From positions 1 to 21,379 of IMG/VR virus record IMGVR_UViG_3300029448_000523: a stretch of 21,379 nt of DNA; one strand, written 5' to 3'. This document shows, one piece after another, positions 7-21,379 of this stretch. This DNA is from a virus. Each line of letters opens with the position of its first letter. Within the stretch, counting starts at the first letter, position 1. Below the pieces are notes generated by a model. That model was not told the origin of the DNA. It was given only the letters and a program-made list of their open reading frames with translations, and searched no databases. The translations under genes were made by a program, and so were the position numbers.

Positions 7-3000
7 GTGAGTGAAGCTGTCGTAACATCTCAGTTTGCATCTCCTGAACAGACAGCAGGGGGCATCGAGGGCCTCAAGGCTCGTGCCGCTACCGAAGAGT
101 CTGTCAAGAAAACCATCCCCTATTACATCGGCGACCAGACTAAAAACTTTCACTTTAAACTAGCCGATGCAACAAAGAACTACGCGTCCACCGGCACTCC
201 CTTCAAATCATTGACAGTCGGTAACGAGCAGTTCAACACCAAGACTCGTGATCTCACAGATGTAGATATGTACCTAGCCGGTGCGTATTACATGAACAAT
301 ATCGCATCTGAGGAAGAGCGCACCATCAACGGTGAGCCTGTCAATTTTTCTCTAGGCGACTTTAGCGAAGCAGATGCCAAATTCGCGTACAACAAGGCGA
401 GAGAGTATTACGACGCGGCTACGAAAGACTTTTCCAACAAATACCGAGACACTCAACTTCCTTTCTCTAATCCTGAAACGGGAGAATTCTCCGAGGAGTA
501 TGCTGATAAGGATATTCTTGGAATCGATACGGATGCAAAGACCGCATACGATCGACAGAAAAAGCTGTTTGAGTTTACTCGAGATGTCATTAACAAAGGT
601 AAGAGGGATGAAGTTAGTGACGTTCTTGCCAGCTCAATCGCCCGGAACTTTGCCGTAGGAAATCCGAGGACAGAATTTGCACGAGGCATCGGTGAGACTG
701 TTCGTGGTTTCGGGATTCTCGGTGCAACGACAATCGGTGGTGCCGCGCTATCTGCGGCGGATACCGTTGAAGAGACACTCGGTGCATTAGGTGTCATCGC
801 AAAGAAGAACGATCCTGAACTGAGCAGTATGATGGATCAAACTCTCAGTGGCCTTGCTTACAATGTGATTTCTGCTCAATTCGACGAAGAGGGTAGTAGC
901 CTCGATGCATTGCGAAAGTATTTCGATCCCTACATTCGGGCCGGTGCCGCCGCTATAGAAGTAGTAGAAGATACCCCGATTATTGGTATGACCAGAGACT
1001 TCAATACCCTGATCGAAAAAGACATCAGAGATATGTACGGTGACGAATACTTCGAAGAAAACAAAGACAAATTCACCCTCGCCTCTTCTGATGTAGCAGA
1101 AATCTACAGACACTCGTTTGGTGCATCGGGTATGGGTGCCGCCGCCAATCTCTTCGGTCAGTTCGGACCTGTTGGCGGAGCTATCAACACTATTGCAAAA
1201 TCCACACAACGAGGCATACGTGAACTAGGCGAAGCACAAATTCGATCTGCAAAAGGCACGAGCGACGTGGCGGAGGAGGCAACTGATGCCGTATCCATCG
1301 CAAAACAAATGGCTCAAGAAACCATCGCAAAAGTTCCAACCAAAGTCTTGCGAGGAGCGTATCGTGCGACGATGCCCGTTAGTCGTATTGGTAATCGAGT
1401 AAGGGCAGGTATGGAAGTGGCGGCTCGCACAGATATCCCACCTAGTCTACAGAAGGAATTGACTAGAGTTTCACAATCATATCGTACCGCTCGAGCATCA
1501 GGCAATACTTCTGCGATCGACGAAGCGGCAGATATGTTACAAGACATACAAAATAAGGTTACGTTGCATCTCATTAAAAATAAGAATGTTGTGCCTGAAA
1601 ACCTACGTAAGCTAGGCCTAGCTCGGATGCCCGACCCTATTGTAGGTCGCATGGGTGCGGAGGAGGCCGTCGCCGCGCTGGCTGGCGGTGCCTTCATTGC
1701 AAACGTAATGATGAAAGAAGATGGTACTTTGAGTCCGTATGCGGAACTAGTCGCAATGGGTCCGATGATCATGGCAGGCGTAGCAGGAAACGTAACAGCC
1801 GAGATTGCTATGAACCGACCTACTATTCGCGAATTCTATCAGCAGAATTTAGCTTCTATATTCTCAGGCTCAAACAACCTATCCGATGAAACAAAAGACG
1901 CCATTATTGCGGGAGGATTCGACCCTACAACTGCAACAGATGTAGATGGGTTGAAGGTTGCTCCTCAAGTACAACAGTCTCTTAAAAAGTTGAAAAGAAT
2001 TTTGAAGAAGTTTTCTCCGGAGCAGAGACGAGTTGTCATGGCCAACATAGACAGGCAACGCGCTCGAAACAAAGAGATATTTGCAGATGCAGATCGAGAG
2101 ATTGAAAACTTAAATGCCCGTATTGAAGAGTTGGAAACTGCCGACCCAAAGTTACTTGGTGCTGGGCAAGGTGATCTTCAGTATTTTACACAGTTGAGAG
2201 ATAGCGCCTTGCAATACCGTGCAGATCTCGACTCGGCATCTACTCGTGCGGTTGGATATCTCATGGGTATGGCAGAATACGCGTCGTATACCAACCGTGC
2301 CCTCGATGGTAATGTTGTTGACTTCCGTTCTTTAAAGAATATGCCCAAGAGTCTACAAAATGCTTTTACTTCTCAGATCAAGCTGAAAAGAAATAAAATT
2401 CAAACGGACGCCGCACTTGAAGGGTTGATGATGCGTATAGCTCGCAATCCTATGGCCAAAGATCTCCCCGGGCTACAGAAAAACGCAACACGTTTTGTCG
2501 AGGAACTAAAACAAGATATCGCCGCTATGGAAAGTGAGATTAGCACATTTAGCTCACGCACAGAAGATTTAGTGAGTCGTATGATCAATGCCGCGAGTAG
2601 TATGCGAAACGAGGCTACGGTAACGCAAGATCAGTACAACGCTTTCATTGGTGATATATTTGAGCAGTACAAAAGATACTCCCTAAACAACAGCAACTCA
2701 TTTGAAGAAGGGTTGCAAAAGTTTGTATCCTTCAAGAATGAAGTTATTAACAACAAGGTAACTGCAATCAAGGAGGATTCTGAAGATCTTCTTGCCGCCC
2801 TGAAAGCAGGCCAAACTCAGGAATCTTTTGGCAAGCTCATCGACTCGCAGATCAAGGAAATTGGCAACATTACCACTGCAAACAAGCAGGCGCGTTTTGA
2901 AACTCTGTACGCACCTCTCGAGAATTTGCCTACTGACACTTCCGTAGCATCGAGAAGCCTAATTGAGAATTCAATTAAAAATAAAACAGACCTCTTTGCG

Positions 3001-4980
3001 GAACTGAGCACTGCCGATAGAGATCTGGGTCGCAGGCTGAAAGCCGGTGTTGAGCAGGCTCTGTATAAAGAGCTCATGGAAGGCGATGAGAATCTAGATA
3101 AAATTATTGAAGCTGGTGGAGATGTAACCACGCATCTCGAAAATCAAACCAAAAGGTTAATCGATCTCTTCCGTGGTGAAGTTACTGAGTATTTCAACAG
3201 CGGTGCAAAAAACTACAACATAATCGATACGGATGTTGATGCACGTCACGTGTACATTTACCTACGCGAGACGGATGTAATTGATACGGACATCGACATA
3301 ACGTCTAGTGACCTCTTTAAGGTACAGGAAAGAATCCGGGCGAGAGCCATGGACGTATCAACGAGTTCAGAGGCGGGGAGACAACGTAGAGACGCTATGG
3401 TGTCAACAGCCGACAAGTTGTTCGACTCGATACTAAGTGGTGTTCCGGAAGACTTCCGAATACAGTTCGAAGGTGTAGAGATGGCACCGAGGCAGTATCG
3501 CGATTACGTAAATACTTTGTACAGATTAGAAGTTGGCGAGCGAGAGACAAAGGGAAGCCTCTTCCAGAAGATCGACGCCGCCGATGGCGAAAAATACCGT
3601 CGCTATTTCCAAGGTAAGGTAGACGTTAAGCCTCTCGAGAAAGACTTTGTAAACATGATCACGAAGTCTGGCGACGAGTTTATAGAGGCGTCGGAAAACT
3701 TTGAAAAGATTCTTCGTCAATCTTTTGGTGTTCCTCACATCGAAGGTGTTCCTGCACGGGAATGGTTAAAGACAAACGACGTGAATCTCTATCGCGAAGA
3801 GTTATACAAATCGATGCTATCCTATGAATTCAGGGACATGCCCGTGGATAGTCGCAACGCAGTCACACAGCAAATGGCGGCGGTAGCTCGCCTGCTCGTA
3901 GGCAAAACTTTCTTGACGGAATCCCCTGAAGATTTCTTGACATCGCAGATTGTCACCGCTGTTAAGTCCCCCGTAAAGAATGAATCGTGGATGATGAAAG
4001 CGGCCAAAGAAGAGGGATATCTCGACAAGATCAAAGACACGTTCACAGTCAACATCGATGGCGAGGATGTAATTCTCTTCAATCCCTACGATGAGTTTGG
4101 CGGCTCTGTAGAAAAGATGGTTCGAAATATCGACGGAGTATCTGTAGACCGTGCCAAGATTGACAACATGTTCAGCGAAATTGTTACTAAGGCAGGTACC
4201 GATCAGAAGCAAGCATCCAAGCGATATGCAGAAGCTATGAAGATCGAGATGGACATAATGGAAACAATATCAAGTAAGCCGGGATCTCTATTTGATACCG
4301 ACAACGCAATGTCATTGTCCAGTCTACAAACCTTCTTGTATTCCTATAGCAAGAAAGGTAAAATAGAAGAAGCAAAGCAGGCTCTTCGCAACATGCTTTC
4401 GGATCATCTGCGTGATCTAGCCCGGATCGAAACCGTGCCCGGTGAAATTAGTGAACGTACCGGTGCCATGCTGAAAAAGATCAACAATCCAGAAAAGGTT
4501 GTGGACTGGATTGATTCTTACGTAGGTGGCGAAATCCTAGATCTTTTAGATGTGGGTGACGAAACTTTCAAAACGAGTCTGCGTCAGTACATGATCAATG
4601 AAGCCGTACGCATCGAAGATAGTGGAAAGGGCATATCAGTCACGGGCATCCCGCGAGCCATGTCAAATCAGCAACAGGCATCGAAAGTAAACAACGTAGT
4701 CAAGGGTCTCGTGCCTCCTTCCTATTTTGCTTTTGAGATGTTTCAGAGATATATGGATCACAGAGATCACAATATTCTCAAGTTCATGCTCACGGATAAA
4801 GAAGGTGGTGAGATCCTTGTTAAAATGCTCGAGGATGCTGGATCGGTAACCGATAAGCAATACAACTTCCTCGCCGAGCGTTCCATGATCTACGCATTAC
4901 ATGCCGGATTGATATCTGAACAGGACATTGAAGCTGATAAAGAAGTCGTTATTGAAGAAGTCAGATCCTTGATAGAGTAG
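7..4980 (+). CDS. Giant phage structural/ejection-type protein (1657 aa), function unproven
   Basis: A single uninterrupted 1657-residue frame. Its GTG start overlaps a TGA at 8-10 that probably ends an upstream gene cut off by the window edge, and GAGG lies only 2 nt before it, so a later start is possible. The protein is mostly charged and helical. Two Ala/Gly-rich hydrophobic stretches are visible, near residues 234-262 and 554-602 (the latter with AVAALAGGAFIANVMM and a second run ending in AEIAM), and there is a heptad-like coiled-coil patch near 695-710 (ADREIENLNARIEELE). I see no lysozyme, transglycosylase, protease or tail-fibre signature. Size, position at the end of an apparent late operon and membrane-compatible segments resemble internal virion/ejection proteins such as T7 gp16, but this rests on context. 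A tape-measure role is less likely if the phage is short-tailed. The CDS is near certain; the role is inference. Confidence 0.9.
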   Translation: MSEAVVTSQFASPEQTAGGIEGLKARAATEESVKKTIPYYIGDQTKNFHFKLADATKNYASTGTPFKSLTVGNEQFNTKTRDLTDVDMYLAGAYYMNNIASEEERTINGEPVNFSLGDFSEADAKFAYNKAREYYDAATKDFSNKYRDTQLPFSNPETGEFSEEYADKDILGIDTDAKTAYDRQKKLFEFTRDVINKGKRDEVSDVLASSIARNFAVGNPRTEFARGIGETVRGFGILGATTIGGAALSAADTVEETLGALGVIAKKNDPELSSMMDQTLSGLAYNVISAQFDEEGSSLDALRKYFDPYIRAGAAAIEVVEDTPIIGMTRDFNTLIEKDIRDMYGDEYFEENKDKFTLASSDVAEIYRHSFGASGMGAAANLFGQFGPVGGAINTIAKSTQRGIRELGEAQIRSAKGTSDVAEEATDAVSIAKQMAQETIAKVPTKVLRGAYRATMPVSRIGNRVRAGMEVAARTDIPPSLQKELTRVSQSYRTARASGNTSAIDEAADMLQDIQNKVTLHLIKNKNVVPENLRKLGLARMPDPIVGRMGAEEAVAALAGGAFIANVMMKEDGTLSPYAELVAMGPMIMAGVAGNVTAEIAMNRPTIREFYQQNLASIFSGSNNLSDETKDAIIAGGFDPTTATDVDGLKVAPQVQQSLKKLKRILKKFSPEQRRVVMANIDRQRARNKEIFADADREIENLNARIEELETADPKLLGAGQGDLQYFTQLRDSALQYRADLDSASTRAVGYLMGMAEYASYTNRALDGNVVDFRSLKNMPKSLQNAFTSQIKLKRNKIQTDAALEGLMMRIARNPMAKDLPGLQKNATRFVEELKQDIAAMESEISTFSSRTEDLVSRMINAASSMRNEATVTQDQYNAFIGDIFEQYKRYSLNNSNSFEEGLQKFVSFKNEVINNKVTAIKEDSEDLLAALKAGQTQESFGKLIDSQIKEIGNITTANKQARFETLYAPLENLPTDTSVASRSLIENSIKNKTDLFAELSTADRDLGRRLKAGVEQALYKELMEGDENLDKIIEAGGDVTTHLENQTKRLIDLFRGEVTEYFNSGAKNYNIIDTDVDARHVYIYLRETDVIDTDIDITSSDLFKVQERIRARAMDVSTSSEAGRQRRDAMVSTADKLFDSILSGVPEDFRIQFEGVEMAPRQYRDYVNTLYRLEVGERETKGSLFQKIDAADGEKYRRYFQGKVDVKPLEKDFVNMITKSGDEFIEASENFEKILRQSFGVPHIEGVPAREWLKTNDVNLYREELYKSMLSYEFRDMPVDSRNAVTQQMAAVARLLVGKTFLTESPEDFLTSQIVTAVKSPVKNESWMMKAAKEEGYLDKIKDTFTVNIDGEDVILFNPYDEFGGSVEKMVRNIDGVSVDRAKIDNMFSEIVTKAGTDQKQASKRYAEAMKIEMDIMETISSKPGSLFDTDNAMSLSSLQTFLYSYSKKGKIEEAKQALRNMLSDHLRDLARIETVPGEISERTGAMLKKINNPEKVVDWIDSYVGGEILDLLDVGDETFKTSLRQYMINEAVRIEDSGKGISVTGIPRAMSNQQQASKVNNVVKGLVPPSYFAFEMFQRYMDHRDHNILKFMLTDKEGGEILVKMLEDAGSVTDKQYNFLAERSMIYALHAGLISEQDIEADKEVVIEEVRSLIE

Positions 4981-4994
4981 TAGGAAATTAAGAT

Positions 4995-5201
4995 ATGAGC
5001 AGATACACTGAACCTCGCAAACCCCAGATGGGATTTAGCGAAACAAAGAAGAAAAGAAAGAAAAAAAACACATCTAATATTTTTACGCCTCGTGTCGGTA
5101 AACCTATCAATACTGATGTATTAGGCGGGGCGGTTACTCTGCCCGGTGGAGACACCGTCACTATCCCCGACATGAAAAACCCCGGAAAGGAAAACAAATG
5201 A
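4995..5201 (+). CDS. Small basic protein (68 aa), unknown
   Basis: The ATG is preceded by TAGGAAATTAAGAT, which gives a usable Shine-Dalgarno, and lies 14 bases after the giant virion gene, so it is very likely co-transcribed with it. The N-terminal third is strongly basic, with a Lys/Arg run near residues 18-25. The rest contains Gly/Pro turns and LPGGDTVTIPD-like text suggesting a short beta structure. It ends in an ATGA-type overlap with the next gene, implying translational coupling. I do not recognise a family. Position suggests a minor virion or assembly component, but nothing in the sequence proves it. Confidence 0.75.
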   Translation: MSRYTEPRKPQMGFSETKKKRKKKNTSNIFTPRVGKPINTDVLGGAVTLPGGDTVTIPDMKNPGKENK

Positions 5202-5471: not shown

Positions 5472-5726
5472 CTATCTAAAGTATTTGCCTGCTTTGTCGT
5501 GCGCTTCTTGGAATAGACCCCGACAAAAGTCGACAAAGTTCATCAGGTCAGAAGCCTTTTCATAGGACGGGTGATGTTTCTCCATCAATCGGATGAATGT
5601 CTCCCGGTCCACATATTGCATATCCATAACGAGGTTCCCGTCTCGGTTCATTCCTACTTCAACAGTGAAGAGGTTTGCTACCGAGCGGGAATCTTTTTGT
5701 TTGGTCTTGGGTGCTTTGGTAGACAT
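5472..5726 (-). CDS. Small protein downstream of RNR (84 aa), unknown
   Basis: Last gene of the leftward operon. A good Shine-Dalgarno (AAAGGA, 5 nt spacing) precedes the ATG, and the gene begins 10 bases after the RNR stop. It has a Lys/Ser-rich N-terminus, then a beta-like segment (NLFTVEVGMNRDGNLVMDMQYV) and two helices ending in AHDKAGKYFR. No recognised domain, membrane segment or Cys pattern is present. Its place suggests an accessory to nucleotide metabolism or late replication, which is inference. It converges on the plus-strand gene ending at 5470. Confidence 0.75.
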   Translation of the reverse strand: MSTKAPKTKQKDSRSVANLFTVEVGMNRDGNLVMDMQYVDRETFIRLMEKHHPSYEKASDLMNFVDFCRGLFQEAHDKAGKYFR

Positions 5727-15893: not shown

Positions 15894-16068
15894 GAAAGAA
15901 GTTTCTATTGTTGTCGACCAACGAGATCTTGACAGGATCAAAAAGATTGCCGAGGATGAGCGAACAAGCTGGGCGGAGATCGTCCGAGAACTGATGAAGG
16001 ATTATATCCATGCGTACGAAGAAGAGGACTACGAAGAATCAGAACAGCCAGTCCGAGTTGTCATGTGA
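15859..16068 (+). CDS. Ribbon-helix-helix (CopG/Arc-like) transcriptional regulator candidate
   Basis: A 69-residue protein with an RHH layout: beta-strand EVSIVV at about 14-19, helix QRDLDRIKKIAEDE at 21-34, turn RTSW, helix AEIVRELMKDYIHAY at 39-53, then an acidic tail (EEEDYEESE). RHH dimers insert the strand pair into the major groove of inverted repeats. AAGGA with 8-nt spacing precedes the ATG. It is the second gene of the rightward operon, about 170 bp from the dyad that overlaps both divergent promoters, which fits autoregulation and control of the replication operon. The fold call is from pattern only; a toxin-antitoxin antitoxin is an alternative, but no toxin partner is evident. 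Confidence 0.75.
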   Translation: MGRPLLVDPKHRKEVSIVVDQRDLDRIKKIAEDERTSWAEIVRELMKDYIHAYEEEDYEESEQPVRVVM

Positions 16069-18248: not shown

Positions 18249-18330
18249 AGAAAGCAAATCGGGTGTTGACCCGAATCAAAAGACCGGGCATGGTCCATTT
18301 CATGGCATTTTGGCCATGGATTAAAAGAAA

Positions 18331-18341
18331 GGGTTTCACCC
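18331..18341 (+). promoter_or_regulatory. Start-codon-proximal hairpin, copy 1
   Basis: GAAAGGGTTTCACCC directly abuts the ATG at 18342. GGGT and ACCC can pair around a TTC loop, burying the end of the Shine-Dalgarno. The same arrangement precedes two other genes in the right-hand module. Confidence 0.5.
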
Positions 18342-19004
18342 ATGAATGAAATGACGACCACACGCTATAAAAAGAGCATAAAGGCGCTTGATGACTATGG
18401 CCACGCGGTCCTAAAAGAATCGAGCAACAAGAAACTGGCCCGGCGGGTAACCAAGGGGAAGTTTAAGGGGTACGCAATCCGGACCCTGACCTTAACCGAG
18501 CGGGCAACCTGTCCCCGGTCGTGCTTCCACTGGTCCACATGCTATGGCAACAACATGCCATTTGCGCATCGTCTGGACCACACCAACCCCAAACTACTCA
18601 TGGACAAGATACATAGTGACCTGCTGGCCCATGATTGGGACCGGTCCGGAATGCTTGTTCGTTTGCATGTGCTGGGTGATTTCTTTTCGCCTACCTATGT
18701 CCAGTTTTGGAAGTTTGCTTTGGATGCTTTCCCGGGGCTGGCCGCATGGGGTTACACTGCTCGCCAACCGGGTGAACCCATCGGGGAAGCAATCCGCAAG
18801 GTCAGGGATACATACCCGGACCGATTCGCTATCCGGTGGAGCAATCAACCGGGGCTGGCCTTTTCGGCGAACAGTCTTGACATGCCCAACCTAAAACCGG
18901 ATGTTGTGCCTTGCCCGGAACAAACGGGAAAGACCAAGGGTTGTGGCCATTGCACATTGTGCTGGGACCAACCAGCCCGCCAAATTGGTTTTGCAACACA
19001 CTAG
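18342..19004 (+). CDS. Cys-rich GP88-like phage protein (220 aa)
   Basis: The N-terminal basic segment is followed by LTLTERATCPRSCFHWSTCYGN, with C57, C61 and C67. The centre has LVRLHVLGDFFSPTYVQFW and AAWGYTARQPGEPIG, and the C-terminus has C191 plus C201, C204 and C207 in CGHCTLCW. The TCPxxC...CYG element resembles the GP88 family of phage proteins, and very similar TCPRSC-HW-CYGN and CxxCxLCW proteins are, from memory, common in alphaproteobacterial phages and prophages. Seven conserved-looking Cys suggest metal or Fe-S binding; a radical-SAM-like role has not been shown and is only a hypothesis. G+C content is visibly higher than in the genes to the left. Translation starts at an ATG directly after a small GGGT/ACCC hairpin. 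Confidence 0.85.
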   Translation: MNEMTTTRYKKSIKALDDYGHAVLKESSNKKLARRVTKGKFKGYAIRTLTLTERATCPRSCFHWSTCYGNNMPFAHRLDHTNPKLLMDKIHSDLLAHDWDRSGMLVRLHVLGDFFSPTYVQFWKFALDAFPGLAAWGYTARQPGEPIGEAIRKVRDTYPDRFAIRWSNQPGLAFSANSLDMPNLKPDVVPCPEQTGKTKGCGHCTLCWDQPARQIGFATH

Positions 19005-19009
19005 AAAGG

Positions 19010-19020
19010 GGGTTTTACCC
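19010..19020 (+). promoter_or_regulatory. Start-codon-proximal hairpin, copy 2
   Basis: GAAAGGGGGTTTTACCC directly precedes the ATG at 19021. GGGT and ACCC can pair around a TTT loop. It is homologous in layout to the sites at 18331 and 20241. Confidence 0.5.
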
Positions 19021-19260
19021 ATGACATATGTAGGAAAAAAAGTCAGAATCAAACTTGCAGAATCTCAAGAAATACTAGAGCGAACGGCCCACGACGCGGG
19101 CACCTTTAATGATCACCTGATTCGGATCATCTCCGCCCAACAATTCAGAATGGCGCAACTTGACGAGCAATTAAGCGAGGCTATCAATTTAGCCTACCCC
19201 ACAAAAATGAGGGTTGATAGGCTAGAAAAGAAACTGGAAGAAATGGGGCGCAAGTCATGA
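19021..19260 (+). CDS. Small helical protein (79 aa), unknown
   Basis: Starts directly after the second GGGTTTTACCC leader hairpin. The N-terminal part (MTYVGKKVRIKLAESQEILERTA) is basic. Two helices with heptad character follow: RMAQLDEQLSEAINLAYP and MRVDRLEKKLEEMGRKS. It ends in an ATGA overlap with a helix-turn-helix gene, so the two products are probably made together; a dimerisation partner or co-regulator is possible. No family recognised. Confidence 0.72.
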   Translation: MTYVGKKVRIKLAESQEILERTAHDAGTFNDHLIRIISAQQFRMAQLDEQLSEAINLAYPTKMRVDRLEKKLEEMGRKS

Positions 19261-19493
19261 ATATTCGTCCATTTAAAAGAGGAAAGGGTTTTGATCTGAT
19301 AGCCCTACTTGTTCAAGAAAGCTTGTCTTCATCGGAACTTGCATTTCGGTGTGGCTTGTCTGAATCAACAATTCACGTTTACCTTGCAAACATACCTAGA
19401 TGGAGTGATTTGAGAATATCCAGAACATTTGATCGGGAAAAACTTTGCATGACTTACCACATAAACAATTGGCCAAAGGATGAACAGCCATGA
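19257..19493 (+). CDS. Helix-turn-helix regulator candidate (78 aa)
   Basis: The HTH is visible at about residues 23-45: SLSSSELAFRCGLSESTIHVYL, with the Ser/Ala-Gly turn and a second helix fitting a MarR/winged-type recognition helix. The rest could form a short wing (LRISRTFDREKLCMTYHI). It is coupled by ATGA overlaps to both neighbours, the next of which is another HTH protein. A DNA-binding repressor or replication initiator accessory is plausible. Confidence 0.7.
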   Translation: MNIRPFKRGKGFDLIALLVQESLSSSELAFRCGLSESTIHVYLANIPRWSDLRISRTFDREKLCMTYHINNWPKDEQP

Positions 19494-19789
19494 CAAACCT
19501 TGTAAAAATTACACACCAGCAGGAATTCTACCCGGGCCGGGTTGATTCAATCAAAAAATCAATCGAGCGGGGACAAATGCGCTTTGTTGCCCAGTACCCA
19601 CGACGCAAGCGCAACCTTGTTTTGCGACTTGGTGATGGTCCCCAAACGATCGACGAATTGTCCATTGCCACGGATTTGAAACCGGCAACCATCCGGCGCT
19701 ATATTGTCGACATTGAATTACAGACGGGGCTAGAGGTCCAACGCAAGTATGGCAACCCAGAGGGCACACATTACTGGATTGGGCTATAG
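19490..19789 (+). CDS. Second winged-HTH regulator candidate (99 aa)
   Basis: Basic N-terminal half (YPRRKRNLVLRL) then an HTH at about 50-75 (PQTIDELSIATDLKPATIRRYI) and a wing-like strand pair (LEVQRKYGNPEGTHYWIGL). Its arrangement parallels the gene before it, to which it is ATGA-coupled; together they could form a heteromeric regulator or reflect an old duplication that has diverged. No catalytic motif. Confidence 0.7.
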   Translation: MTNLVKITHQQEFYPGRVDSIKKSIERGQMRFVAQYPRRKRNLVLRLGDGPQTIDELSIATDLKPATIRRYIVDIELQTGLEVQRKYGNPEGTHYWIGL

Positions 19790-19792
19790 ATC

Positions 19793-19882
19793 GTGGATGA
19801 ATTCGGTTACATTGTTTACAAATGTTTGAGCTTGTGTATGATTATTGCGTTCTTGGTCGTGGTGGCCAAGGTGTTAGATTGA
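19793..19882 (+). CDS. 29-aa single-pass membrane micro-protein candidate
   Basis: A GTG frame 3 bases after the previous stop encodes a short polar N-terminus (MDEFGYIVYK), then CLSLCMIIAFLVVVAKVLD, a run of about 17 mostly hydrophobic residues that fits one membrane helix. An internal ATG at 19838 would give only the last 14 residues. No good Shine-Dalgarno is seen, so translation would rely on coupling. Its stop overlaps the GAAAGGA that serves the next gene. Composition is the main support. Confidence 0.4.
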   Translation: MDEFGYIVYKCLSLCMIIAFLVVVAKVLD

Positions 19883-19893
19883 AAGGATCAAAG

Positions 19894-20148
19894 ATGACTG
19901 CAGGAATTATTGGAACGGCTATTGGATTAGGCGCGGCCACTACATGGCGGGGCCACGGATCACCATATGATCGAGGCGGGGCAGATGCTTATTACTGGCG
20001 TGACCCCAACCCGCACAAATGGCCGGGGGGTGACTACACGTCCCCGGTCTATGACCTGACCCCGTTAGAGGTTGAAGAATACTTGTCCGGATATCGGGCA
20101 CAATATGATTCCGGTGTCCGTAAAGATTGGGGGGGTGATGATGTTTGA
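19894..20148 (+). CDS. DRGGADAYY-type conserved phage protein (84 aa)
   Basis: The start at 19894 is chosen for AAAGGATCAAAG directly upstream; an in-frame ATG at 19822 would run through the micro-protein frame. The Gly/Ala-rich N-terminus (MTAGIIGTAIGLGAATTW) may be a membrane or lipid-contacting segment. The core carries YDRGGADAYYWRDPNPHKW (25-43), LTPLEVEEYLSGY (55-67) and KDWG (77-80). I recall this DRGxADxYY...PNPH...Yxx GY pattern from many marine phages and some bacteria as a conserved protein without known function. It overlaps a 20-codon frame at its end. Confidence 0.8.
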   Translation: MTAGIIGTAIGLGAATTWRGHGSPYDRGGADAYYWRDPNPHKWPGGDYTSPVYDLTPLEVEEYLSGYRAQYDSGVRKDWGGDDV

Positions 20149-20203
20149 TAAGATTCTTGACGTGCTGGTGGACGTGTTGACGAACATCGGCAACATCATT
20201 TAA
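20141..20203 (+). CDS. 20-aa amphipathic micro-peptide candidate
   Basis: An ATG after GGGGGGTG, overlapping the end of the previous gene, encodes MFDKILDVLVDVLTNIGNII before TAA. The residues alternate hydrophobic and acidic/polar as in an amphipathic membrane-active helix. Very short, so chance cannot be ruled out. Confidence 0.3.
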   Translation: MFDKILDVLVDVLTNIGNII

Positions 20204-20212
20204 GGATAATGT

Positions 20213-20228
20213 ATGGGCATCCGCCCAT
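20213..20228 (+). promoter_or_regulatory. Small perfect hairpin in a 5' leader
   Basis: ATGGGC at 20213-20218 and GCCCAT at 20223-20228 pair around ATCC. It lies 24 bases before the ATG at 20252. It may delay or expose the ribosome site. Confidence 0.35.
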
Positions 20229-20240
20229 CACAACTGAAAG

Positions 20241-20251
20241 GGTTTCTAACC
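20241..20251 (+). promoter_or_regulatory. Start-codon-proximal hairpin, copy 3
   Basis: GAAAGGGTTTCTAACC directly precedes the ATG at 20252; GGTT and AACC pair around TCT. The paired bases differ from copies 1 and 2 while pairing is kept, a compensatory-looking change. Confidence 0.5.
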
Positions 20252-20689
20252 ATGACAACATTGACCAACGAACACGAACAGACCACCATCTTTGATTTCG
20301 AAGTTAGGCTAGCAATTACCCAATTGGATTGGCGGTTCTTTACAACCAATTGGCCGGACCTGACCAAGAATGAATTGATTGATTGGGCGGGCCTCATTCC
20401 TGATTTCTTTCTTCATGCGATACAAGAGACCGACTCCGACGACGTCCACGCGGTGGCCGAGGGCATGGACGAAATATATGGATTCGGTGCGCTGGGTCAT
20501 CCGTTCAAAGATACCCGCATGGTGCCGGGTGATCATGGCCCCGTGTTGCGACATCCAGACGACGAGGATATTAAGCCCATCCTTGCGGTGAGCTTTGAAG
20601 GCCGCCGGGTGAAGTGCGTGGTTTATCCTTATGGGTTGGTTGGGTTGATCAATTCCCGGGGTGACCAGCTTGTGATCCGCATGGACTAA
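20252..20689 (+). CDS. Unknown protein (145 aa)
   Basis: The ATG at 20252 is preferred over one at 20213 because it follows the GAAAGGG hairpin leader shared with two upstream genes. The N-terminal half is helical and acidic (IFDFEVRLAITQLDWRFFTT, LIDWAGLIPDFFLHAIQ, DDVHAVAEGMDEIYGFG); the C-terminal half is beta-like (ILAVSFEGRRVKCVVYPYGLVGLIN). No family recognised. It is the last gene of the plus-strand module and is followed by a strong terminator. Confidence 0.75.
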   Translation: MTTLTNEHEQTTIFDFEVRLAITQLDWRFFTTNWPDLTKNELIDWAGLIPDFFLHAIQETDSDDVHAVAEGMDEIYGFGALGHPFKDTRMVPGDHGPVLRHPDDEDIKPILAVSFEGRRVKCVVYPYGLVGLINSRGDQLVIRMD

Positions 20690-20726
20690 CCGTCGGGGAT
20701 TTCTCCCTGTTTCCCGGCGTAACTTG

Positions 20727-20757
20727 CCCCCGGCTAATCCCCGGGGGTTTTTTTTTT
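20727..20757 (+). terminator. Strong rho-independent terminator
   Basis: CCCCCGG (20727-20733), a 7-base loop, CCGGGGG (20741-20747) and then ten T's. A textbook intrinsic terminator 37 bases after the last gene of the right-hand module. Confidence 0.9.
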
Positions 20758-20847: not shown

Positions 20848-20888
20848 CCGTTCAGTAGGGTACCCCTTCGGGCTGGTTTGGCGGGGGT
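20844..20888. repeat. Alternative hairpin ACCCCCG/CGGGGGT
   Basis: ACCCCCG (20844-20850) pairs perfectly with CGGGGGT (20882-20888); inside lie the palindrome GGGTACCC (20858-20865) and a CC-TTCG-GG mini-hairpin. It competes with the preceding hairpin for bases 20844-20847. Confidence 0.45.
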
Positions 20889-20946
20889 TTACCCGGTCCC
20901 AGAATAAAAGGCCAAACGGTTGATAATGCTGGCAATCTTGCGGGGT

Positions 20947-20986
20947 GTCCCATGTGATCCCATGTTATGGCATGCAATCCCACGGC
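20947..20986. repeat. Four tandem 10-bp repeats in helical register
   Basis: GTCCCATGTG, ATCCCATGTT, ATGGCATGCA and ATCCCACGGC follow each other without gaps (consensus ATCCCATGnn). A 10-bp period puts each copy on the same face of the DNA, as in iterons or stacked operator sites. Confidence 0.55.
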
Positions 20987-21221
20987 CTACAGGGTACCCC
21001 GAAAATAAAACAGGGGGACACACGGCGCTTAAAACCCGGCAAAACCCCCTTACGTATCCCCGGCAAGATAAATATATATAGCACCCGGCAGGGGGGCCGC
21101 ATGGGCCACTGGGGGTGGTACACGCTTGCGTATGCAAACTCACTAGTTTTTTGGTAAATATGAGTAAATCGAGGGTAAAGGACTACATGTTGTGCGACGG
21201 GCCGAGTTGCCCTAGATGTAG

Positions 21222-21273
21222 GTTTTGCAACGTGTTAGGTAGACTGGTTGGCCGGTTGGTTGGCCGGTTACCC
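21222..21273. repeat. Diverged ~50-bp direct repeat, copy A
   Basis: Contains TTTTGCAACGTGTTAGGTAG (21223-21242), which differs by one base from copy B at 21314-21333. Similarity continues with substitutions through CCGGT and GGTTACC. Copy A carries an extra 8 bases from an internal 12-bp tandem duplication. Confidence 0.6.
21246..21269. repeat. 12-bp perfect tandem duplication
   Basis: GGTTGGCCGGTT occurs twice in a row (21246-21257, 21258-21269). Each unit is itself partly self-complementary through GGCC. It accounts for the length difference between the two copies of the larger repeat. Confidence 0.85.
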
Positions 21274-21276
21274 AAC

Positions 21277-21296
21277 AAAAAACCCCACAGGGTTTT
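21277..21296. terminator. Bidirectional terminator-like hairpin
   Basis: AAAACCC (21279-21285), loop CACA, GGGTTTT (21290-21296), with further A's upstream. It can act on either strand in principle, though only three G:C pairs make it weak. It is followed at once by the 10-bp palindrome CCCTGCAGGG (21297-21306). Confidence 0.4.
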
Positions 21297-21310
21297 CCCT
21301 GCAGGGTTGC

Positions 21311-21355
21311 ATGTTTTGCGACGTGTTAGGTAGGCCCATTGTCCGGTGGGTTACC
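21311..21355. repeat. Diverged ~50-bp direct repeat, copy B
   Basis: TTTTGCGACGTGTTAGGTAG at 21314-21333 followed by GCCCATTGTCCGGTGGGTTACC, matching copy A with scattered changes. A partial third relative, CATGTTGTGCGACG (21186-21199), matches CATGTTTTGCGACG of copy B at 13 of 14 positions. Confidence 0.6.
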
Positions 21356-21379
21356 TATGGGTTTACCCCCCGGAAGGTT

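Follow-up and report, generated by a model that had tools for sequence, protein, structure and literature searches.

The window (the whole stretch of DNA analyzed here) was a viral contig of 21,379 bases (IMGVR_UViG_3300029448_000523), the DNA polymerase and helicase of which were nearest to those of HMO-2011-type phages of Pelagibacter, Roseobacter-group hosts, and Puniceispirillum. The right end contained a small rightward gene group (the module), with starts at 18342, 19021, 19257, 19490, 19894, and 20252. The first gene (18342-19004, + strand) encoded a GP88-domain protein (PF17338; Pfam E-value of 1.2e-10). Gene 2 (19021-19260, + strand) and gene 3 (20252-20689, + strand) encoded proteins of 79 and 145 amino acids, respectively, both of unknown function, while the product of the gene at 19257 was HTH-like, as judged by eye. 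A possible promoter of the module, TTGACC-17-CATGGT, was located at 18266-18294 (+ strand), and a hairpin with a T run resembling an intrinsic terminator (20726-20756, + strand) closed the module. Searches of the module proteins against Pfam and PHROGs revealed no RNA-binding family. Named phages showed no close match to the right-hand DNA or to the proteins of gene 3 and the gene at 19490, and a single-protein scan of genome contigs yielded no relatives of GP88.

Only one close relative was found: L102 (IMG/VR 2222084010_000053; L002, L010, and L060 are the same record), in which the module was matched in blocks of 77-92% DNA identity. The GP88-domain protein and gene 3 product were 89 and 84% identical, respectively, and gene 2 was represented by a 35-amino acid version with another N-terminus. 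A second homologue of gene 3 (57% identity) was found in L183 (IMG/VR 3300028388_003396). The candidate promoter was present in L102 at 2148-2176: the positions and spacing of the hexamers, TTGAC(C/G)-17-CATGGT, were equal, and the intervening bases differed.

Sequence and recurrence of the leader

Three genes of the module were preceded by GAAAGGG (at 18327, 19004, and 20236) and a stem of 4 bp with a loop of 3 nt, ending one base before the ATG, exactly where the original prediction had placed them. Leader 1 (18327-18341, + strand) consisted of the Shine-Dalgarno (SD) sequence GAAAGGG and the hairpin GGGT-TTC-ACCC (18331-18341), flush with the ATG at 18342. Leader 2 (19004-19020, + strand) consisted of the SD AGAAAGGGGG, which overlapped the TAG stop codon of the GP88 gene, and GGGT-TTT-ACCC (19010-19020), flush with the ATG at 19021. 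Leader 3 (20236-20251, + strand) consisted of GAAAGGG and GGTT-TCT-AACC (20241-20251), flush with the ATG at 20252. The leader was absent from four other genes of the module, and the proposal that it marks the module as a unit holds only insofar as 3 of approximately 7 module genes carry it. GAAAGG without a hairpin also preceded the genes at 5726, 10716, 17700, and 19894, and this sequence alone is the common SD of the phage. As a special word, GAAAGGG was rejected: five occurrences were found against 3.1 expected.

Flush stems of this geometry were present at 4 of the 28 window starts tested, whereas 0.07 was expected when the 20 bases before each start were shuffled, and none of 5000 shuffles reached four stems. 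This number was also never reached when the last four bases were re-dealt among the window genes. Similarly, 4 of 15 starts in L102 had flush stems (0.04 expected), and none was found at the 302 starts of five annotated HMO-2011-type phages. These counts prove that a motif recurs; they do not prove a hairpin, since the sequence itself is common to the three copies.

The fourth stem in the window, GGAT-TAT-ATCC (15999-16009, + strand), had the shape of the leader and another sequence. It was located inside the preceding reading frame, an Arc-like repressor gene, and flush with the ATG at 16010 (AAGGAT-TAT-ATCC-ATG; AAGGATTATATCCATG), was retained in L102 (at 210), and is probably a coincidence. 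The view that no such leader occurs in the left 18 kb was, therefore, correct for the sequence and incorrect for the shape.

As predicted, GGGTTTACCC recurred at 20885-20894 and 21359-21368 (both + strand) without a gene; neither copy had an SD or start codon, and both were conserved in L102 (at 4378 and 4938, respectively). A DNA operator was considered for these copies and the leaders and judged unlikely, because the arms are 2 nt apart in the startless copies and 3 nt apart in the leaders, which is not what a DNA-binding dimer would be expected to require. An intergenic block containing GGGTTTACCC (20861-21008 in the window and 4354-4501 in L102) was 86% identical without gaps, i.e., as conserved as coding DNA. 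Another repeat, TTTTGC(A/G)ACGTGTTAGGTAGGCC, was found as two copies approximately 90 bp apart (21217-21352 in the window and 4796-4912 in L102); in L102, they preceded terminase-looking genes (by eye), and may be a packaging signal.

Conservation and folding of the start regions

All three leaders were retained in L102. In leader 1, the hairpin was identical (2201-2211 in L102), and the SD changed from AAAGAAAGGG in the window to AGAGAGAGGG. Leader 2 differed by a single loop base (TTT/TCT), and leader 3 read GAAAGGGTTTCTAACC in the window and TGGAGGGTTTTACCC in L102. In this comparison of two genomes and six leaders with common sequence, all six retained the SD, GGG, TTT or TTC, ACCC or AACC, and ATG, and every difference inside the 11-nt stem-loop left four pairs. 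Divergence was seen in the DNA preceding leaders 1 and 3 and in the coding DNA of gene 2 past its ATG, so that the leaders were either conserved islands or points at which exchange begins and ends.

Leader 3 had been described as a case in which paired bases change and pairing is kept. Pairing was indeed kept; however, the 5' arm (GGGTTT) was unchanged, and the differences were in the register, 3' arm (ACCC to AACC), and loop length, with pairing surviving through a slip of one base. As evidence, such a slip counts for less than compensatory changes on both sides would. Covariation, which had been suggested as a check, did not emerge from the six leaders: besides loop changes, they contained this one slip with its one-sided change and no two-sided case. 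Judging from these sequences, the evidence for selection on pairing appears thin, and three leaders with a common sequence are not independent proof of a structure.

GAAAGG is complementary to the usual 3' tail of alphaproteobacterial 16S rRNA, CCUCCUUUCU. With this tail, which was assumed along with the host, the SD:anti-SD energies of the leaders were -8.5 to -14.8 kcal/mol and among the stronger in the window; the SD of leader 2 was the strongest, forming an uninterrupted run of ten pairs, one of them G-U. On the other hand, single-strand folding of the leaders (-1.9 to -5.1 kcal/mol) was no better than that of shuffled sequences (z-scores of approximately 0), and the minimum-energy fold of leader 2 favored another hairpin of 3 bp. 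Opening of positions -11 to -1 cost 4.8-6.5 kcal/mol in the leaders vs approximately 3-4 kcal/mol in a typical gene. For positions -18 to +13, the cost was inside the range of other genes, at 5.2-7.6 kcal/mol for the window leaders and 6.2-8.8 kcal/mol for those of L102. Since opening of this region costs no more than usual, and the predicted hairpin covers only the last one to three G of the SD, the data do not support the idea that the leader hides the ribosome site. A better fit is a strong SD followed by a small spacer hairpin that can be melted. No Rfam family matched the window or L010 at the gathering score.

Proposed role of the leader in translation

The explanation that we prefer, with even confidence, is a start-associated translation leader that is restricted to one lineage, recurs three times within a single small transcription unit, and most likely acts in cis, its strong SD being combined with a weak hairpin in the spacer. 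The purine tract AGAAAGG(GGG) would serve as the strong SD for the CCUCCUUUCU tail, and the spacer GUUUnACCC would close the weak 4-bp hairpin, tying up the last one to three G of the SD and leaving the start codon free. The 30S subunit would then bind the exposed GAAA(GG) and melt the hairpin. In gene 2, ribosomes terminating on GP88 would cover the hairpin of leader 2, because the GP88 stop codon overlaps the SD, and would also melt it; translational coupling from GP88 to gene 2 is likely on this arrangement. Overall, initiation would be strong and only modestly damped or coupled. We infer that the hairpin forms and matters; a function for it is plausible, and the effect of the leader on translation is probably modest. 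A hairpin that does matter would represent a translational tuner of very small size that is easily tested.

A rather unlikely but credible alternative is that the sequence and not the structure was retained: a start cassette (SD, U-rich spacer, ACCC, and ATG) may have been copied between the genes of the module, the GGG-CCC pairing being incidental. Copying is consistent with a 5' arm that was identical and a 3' arm that was nearly so among the six copies, with folds no more stable than those of shuffles, with a loop always of pyrimidines, and with the lack of a genuine compensatory change. Against it, ACCC is an unusual start context in HMO-2011-type phages (each of the four positions before the start has approximately 15% C), and the AACC variant retained its four pairs by slipping, which approximately 1 in 12 single changes in the 3' arm would do.

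It is considerably less probable that the leaders are translational operators, at which a phage or host RNA-binding protein on the small hairpin represses the three genes together. The same hairpin occurs at three starts and overlaps the SD, as is generally known for phage translational operators. The R17/MS2 coat and T4 gene 43 sites likewise have a hairpin at the ribosome site; however, these operators have longer stems, a bulge or specific loop, and a known binding protein, in contrast to the weak stem of four pairs in the window leader. Furthermore, L102 lacks the HTH-like gene at 19257 and yet keeps the leaders, and the module proteins included no RNA-binding family. The regulatory RNA-binding protein suggested in the original prediction was unsupported: nothing points to one.

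Recombination boundaries, with the leaders as short blocks of identity at which gene cassettes exchange, are improbable to the same degree. The homologous block of 18323-19024 began at leader 1 and ended just past the ATG of gene 2, and leader 3 was another block boundary, but conserved start signals beside drifting spacers look alike, and approximately 15 nt of identity is little for homologous recombination. It is very improbable that strong SDs resemble hairpins here by chance: G runs of the SD pair easily with C-rich spacers, and shuffles fold equally well, but four stems were seen against 0.07 expected, with 0 of 302 in related phages.

Comparison with other phages and start-associated sequences

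The closest known systems to the preferred translation leader are the start-associated sequences (SAS) of actinobacteriophages, short and strongly conserved elements of unknown function that take the position of the SD upstream of some of the genes (PMC3203893, PMC7302621). In Cluster K mycobacteriophages, the consensus GGGATAGGAGCCC contains the SD and occurs in many copies, approximately half of which have an additional 17-bp imperfect inverted repeat upstream (ESAS) (PMC3203893). In Cluster EF Microbacterium phages, GGGAAAGGACCCC occurs in ten copies with a linked upstream element (PMC7302621). The window leader resembled the Cluster K SAS in being a short, unusually conserved repeat that occupies the ribosome site of some genes in one phage group, in its GGG...CCC ends, and in standing directly before several starts (three copies) and being kept in a relative (all three in L102). 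It differed in that the SD preceded the stem and extended partly into it, there were only three copies, the phage was marine, and an ESAS was absent: the leaders read GAAAGGGTTTnACCC, neither identical nor nearly so to GGGATAGGAGCCC, and no common repeat, such as the 17-bp inverted repeat, was found upstream of the three leaders. The Cluster EF SAS is similarly a conserved element at the SD position, complementary to the 3' end of 16S rRNA, and differs in sequence, order of elements, copy number, and the linked upstream element. Since the SAS sequence and extended repeat were not matched, the leader is regarded as analogous to the actinobacteriophage SAS and not as a member. In actinobacteriophages, such repeats before start codons are still a puzzle, and a similar arrangement is now seen in a marine HMO-2011-type phage. 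The stronger proposal, that the SD-hairpin leader is the gram-negative marine-phage counterpart of the actinophage sequences and makes the accessory genes a regulon via a dedicated factor, is doubtful.

Beyond L102, the enrichment before start codons that had been anticipated in relatives did not materialize. In IMG/VR, GAAAGGGTTTnACCCATG gave two matches (chance level), and RRRGGGTTTYACCCATGA matched 12 contigs, among which more than one match was found only in L102, and only L102 and L097 had matches clearly at gene starts. In genome contigs, 26 matches were found vs approximately 30 expected by base counting; five represented one conserved Rhodobacteraceae reading frame, probably antisense to a gene, and the others were scattered. 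Among approximately 50 distinct leaders of GP88 homologues, a flush 4-bp stem was found in one (L119) only, and the gene 3 homologue of L183 had a different leader. Since matches elsewhere were at the chance level, GP88 homologues were without the hairpin, and the L183 leader differed, the leader is, as far as these sequences indicate, a property of one phage lineage and not of gene families.

The L183 leader was common to four genes of the contig, i.e., the gene 3 homologue and three more, and contained a GC-rich hairpin of 6-7 pairs and a T run 5' of the SD (GGCGGGGATTTTCCCGCCTTTTTTATGGAGC). It resembled the window leader in preceding gene 3 or its homologue and containing a hairpin, and differed in that this hairpin was upstream of the SD rather than between the SD and ATG. 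The four copies (1672-3540 and 4082-4168 in L183) consisted of an A+T-rich, promoter-like TATAAAAT, a hairpin such as GGCGGGGATTTTCCCGCC, the T run, ATGGAGC, and ATG, and the stem bases varied between copies with the pairing kept. This element may be a repeated leader of the 5'-hairpin or terminator-SD type. Together with the window leader, it suggests that a common start signal may often accompany accessory genes of phages as they move.

Two further arrangements were observed. In L097, a T7-like contig, the probable major capsid gene was preceded by GGGAGGGTTTTACCCATGA (5058-5075), and three other starts checked were without it. In Roseobacter phage CRP-361 (L057), a GP88 homologue and the short open reading frame upstream (at 630 and 812) were preceded by AGAGGGACTACCCA and AGAGGCACTACCAA, with a GG(G)...(C)CC arrangement similar to that of the window leaders.
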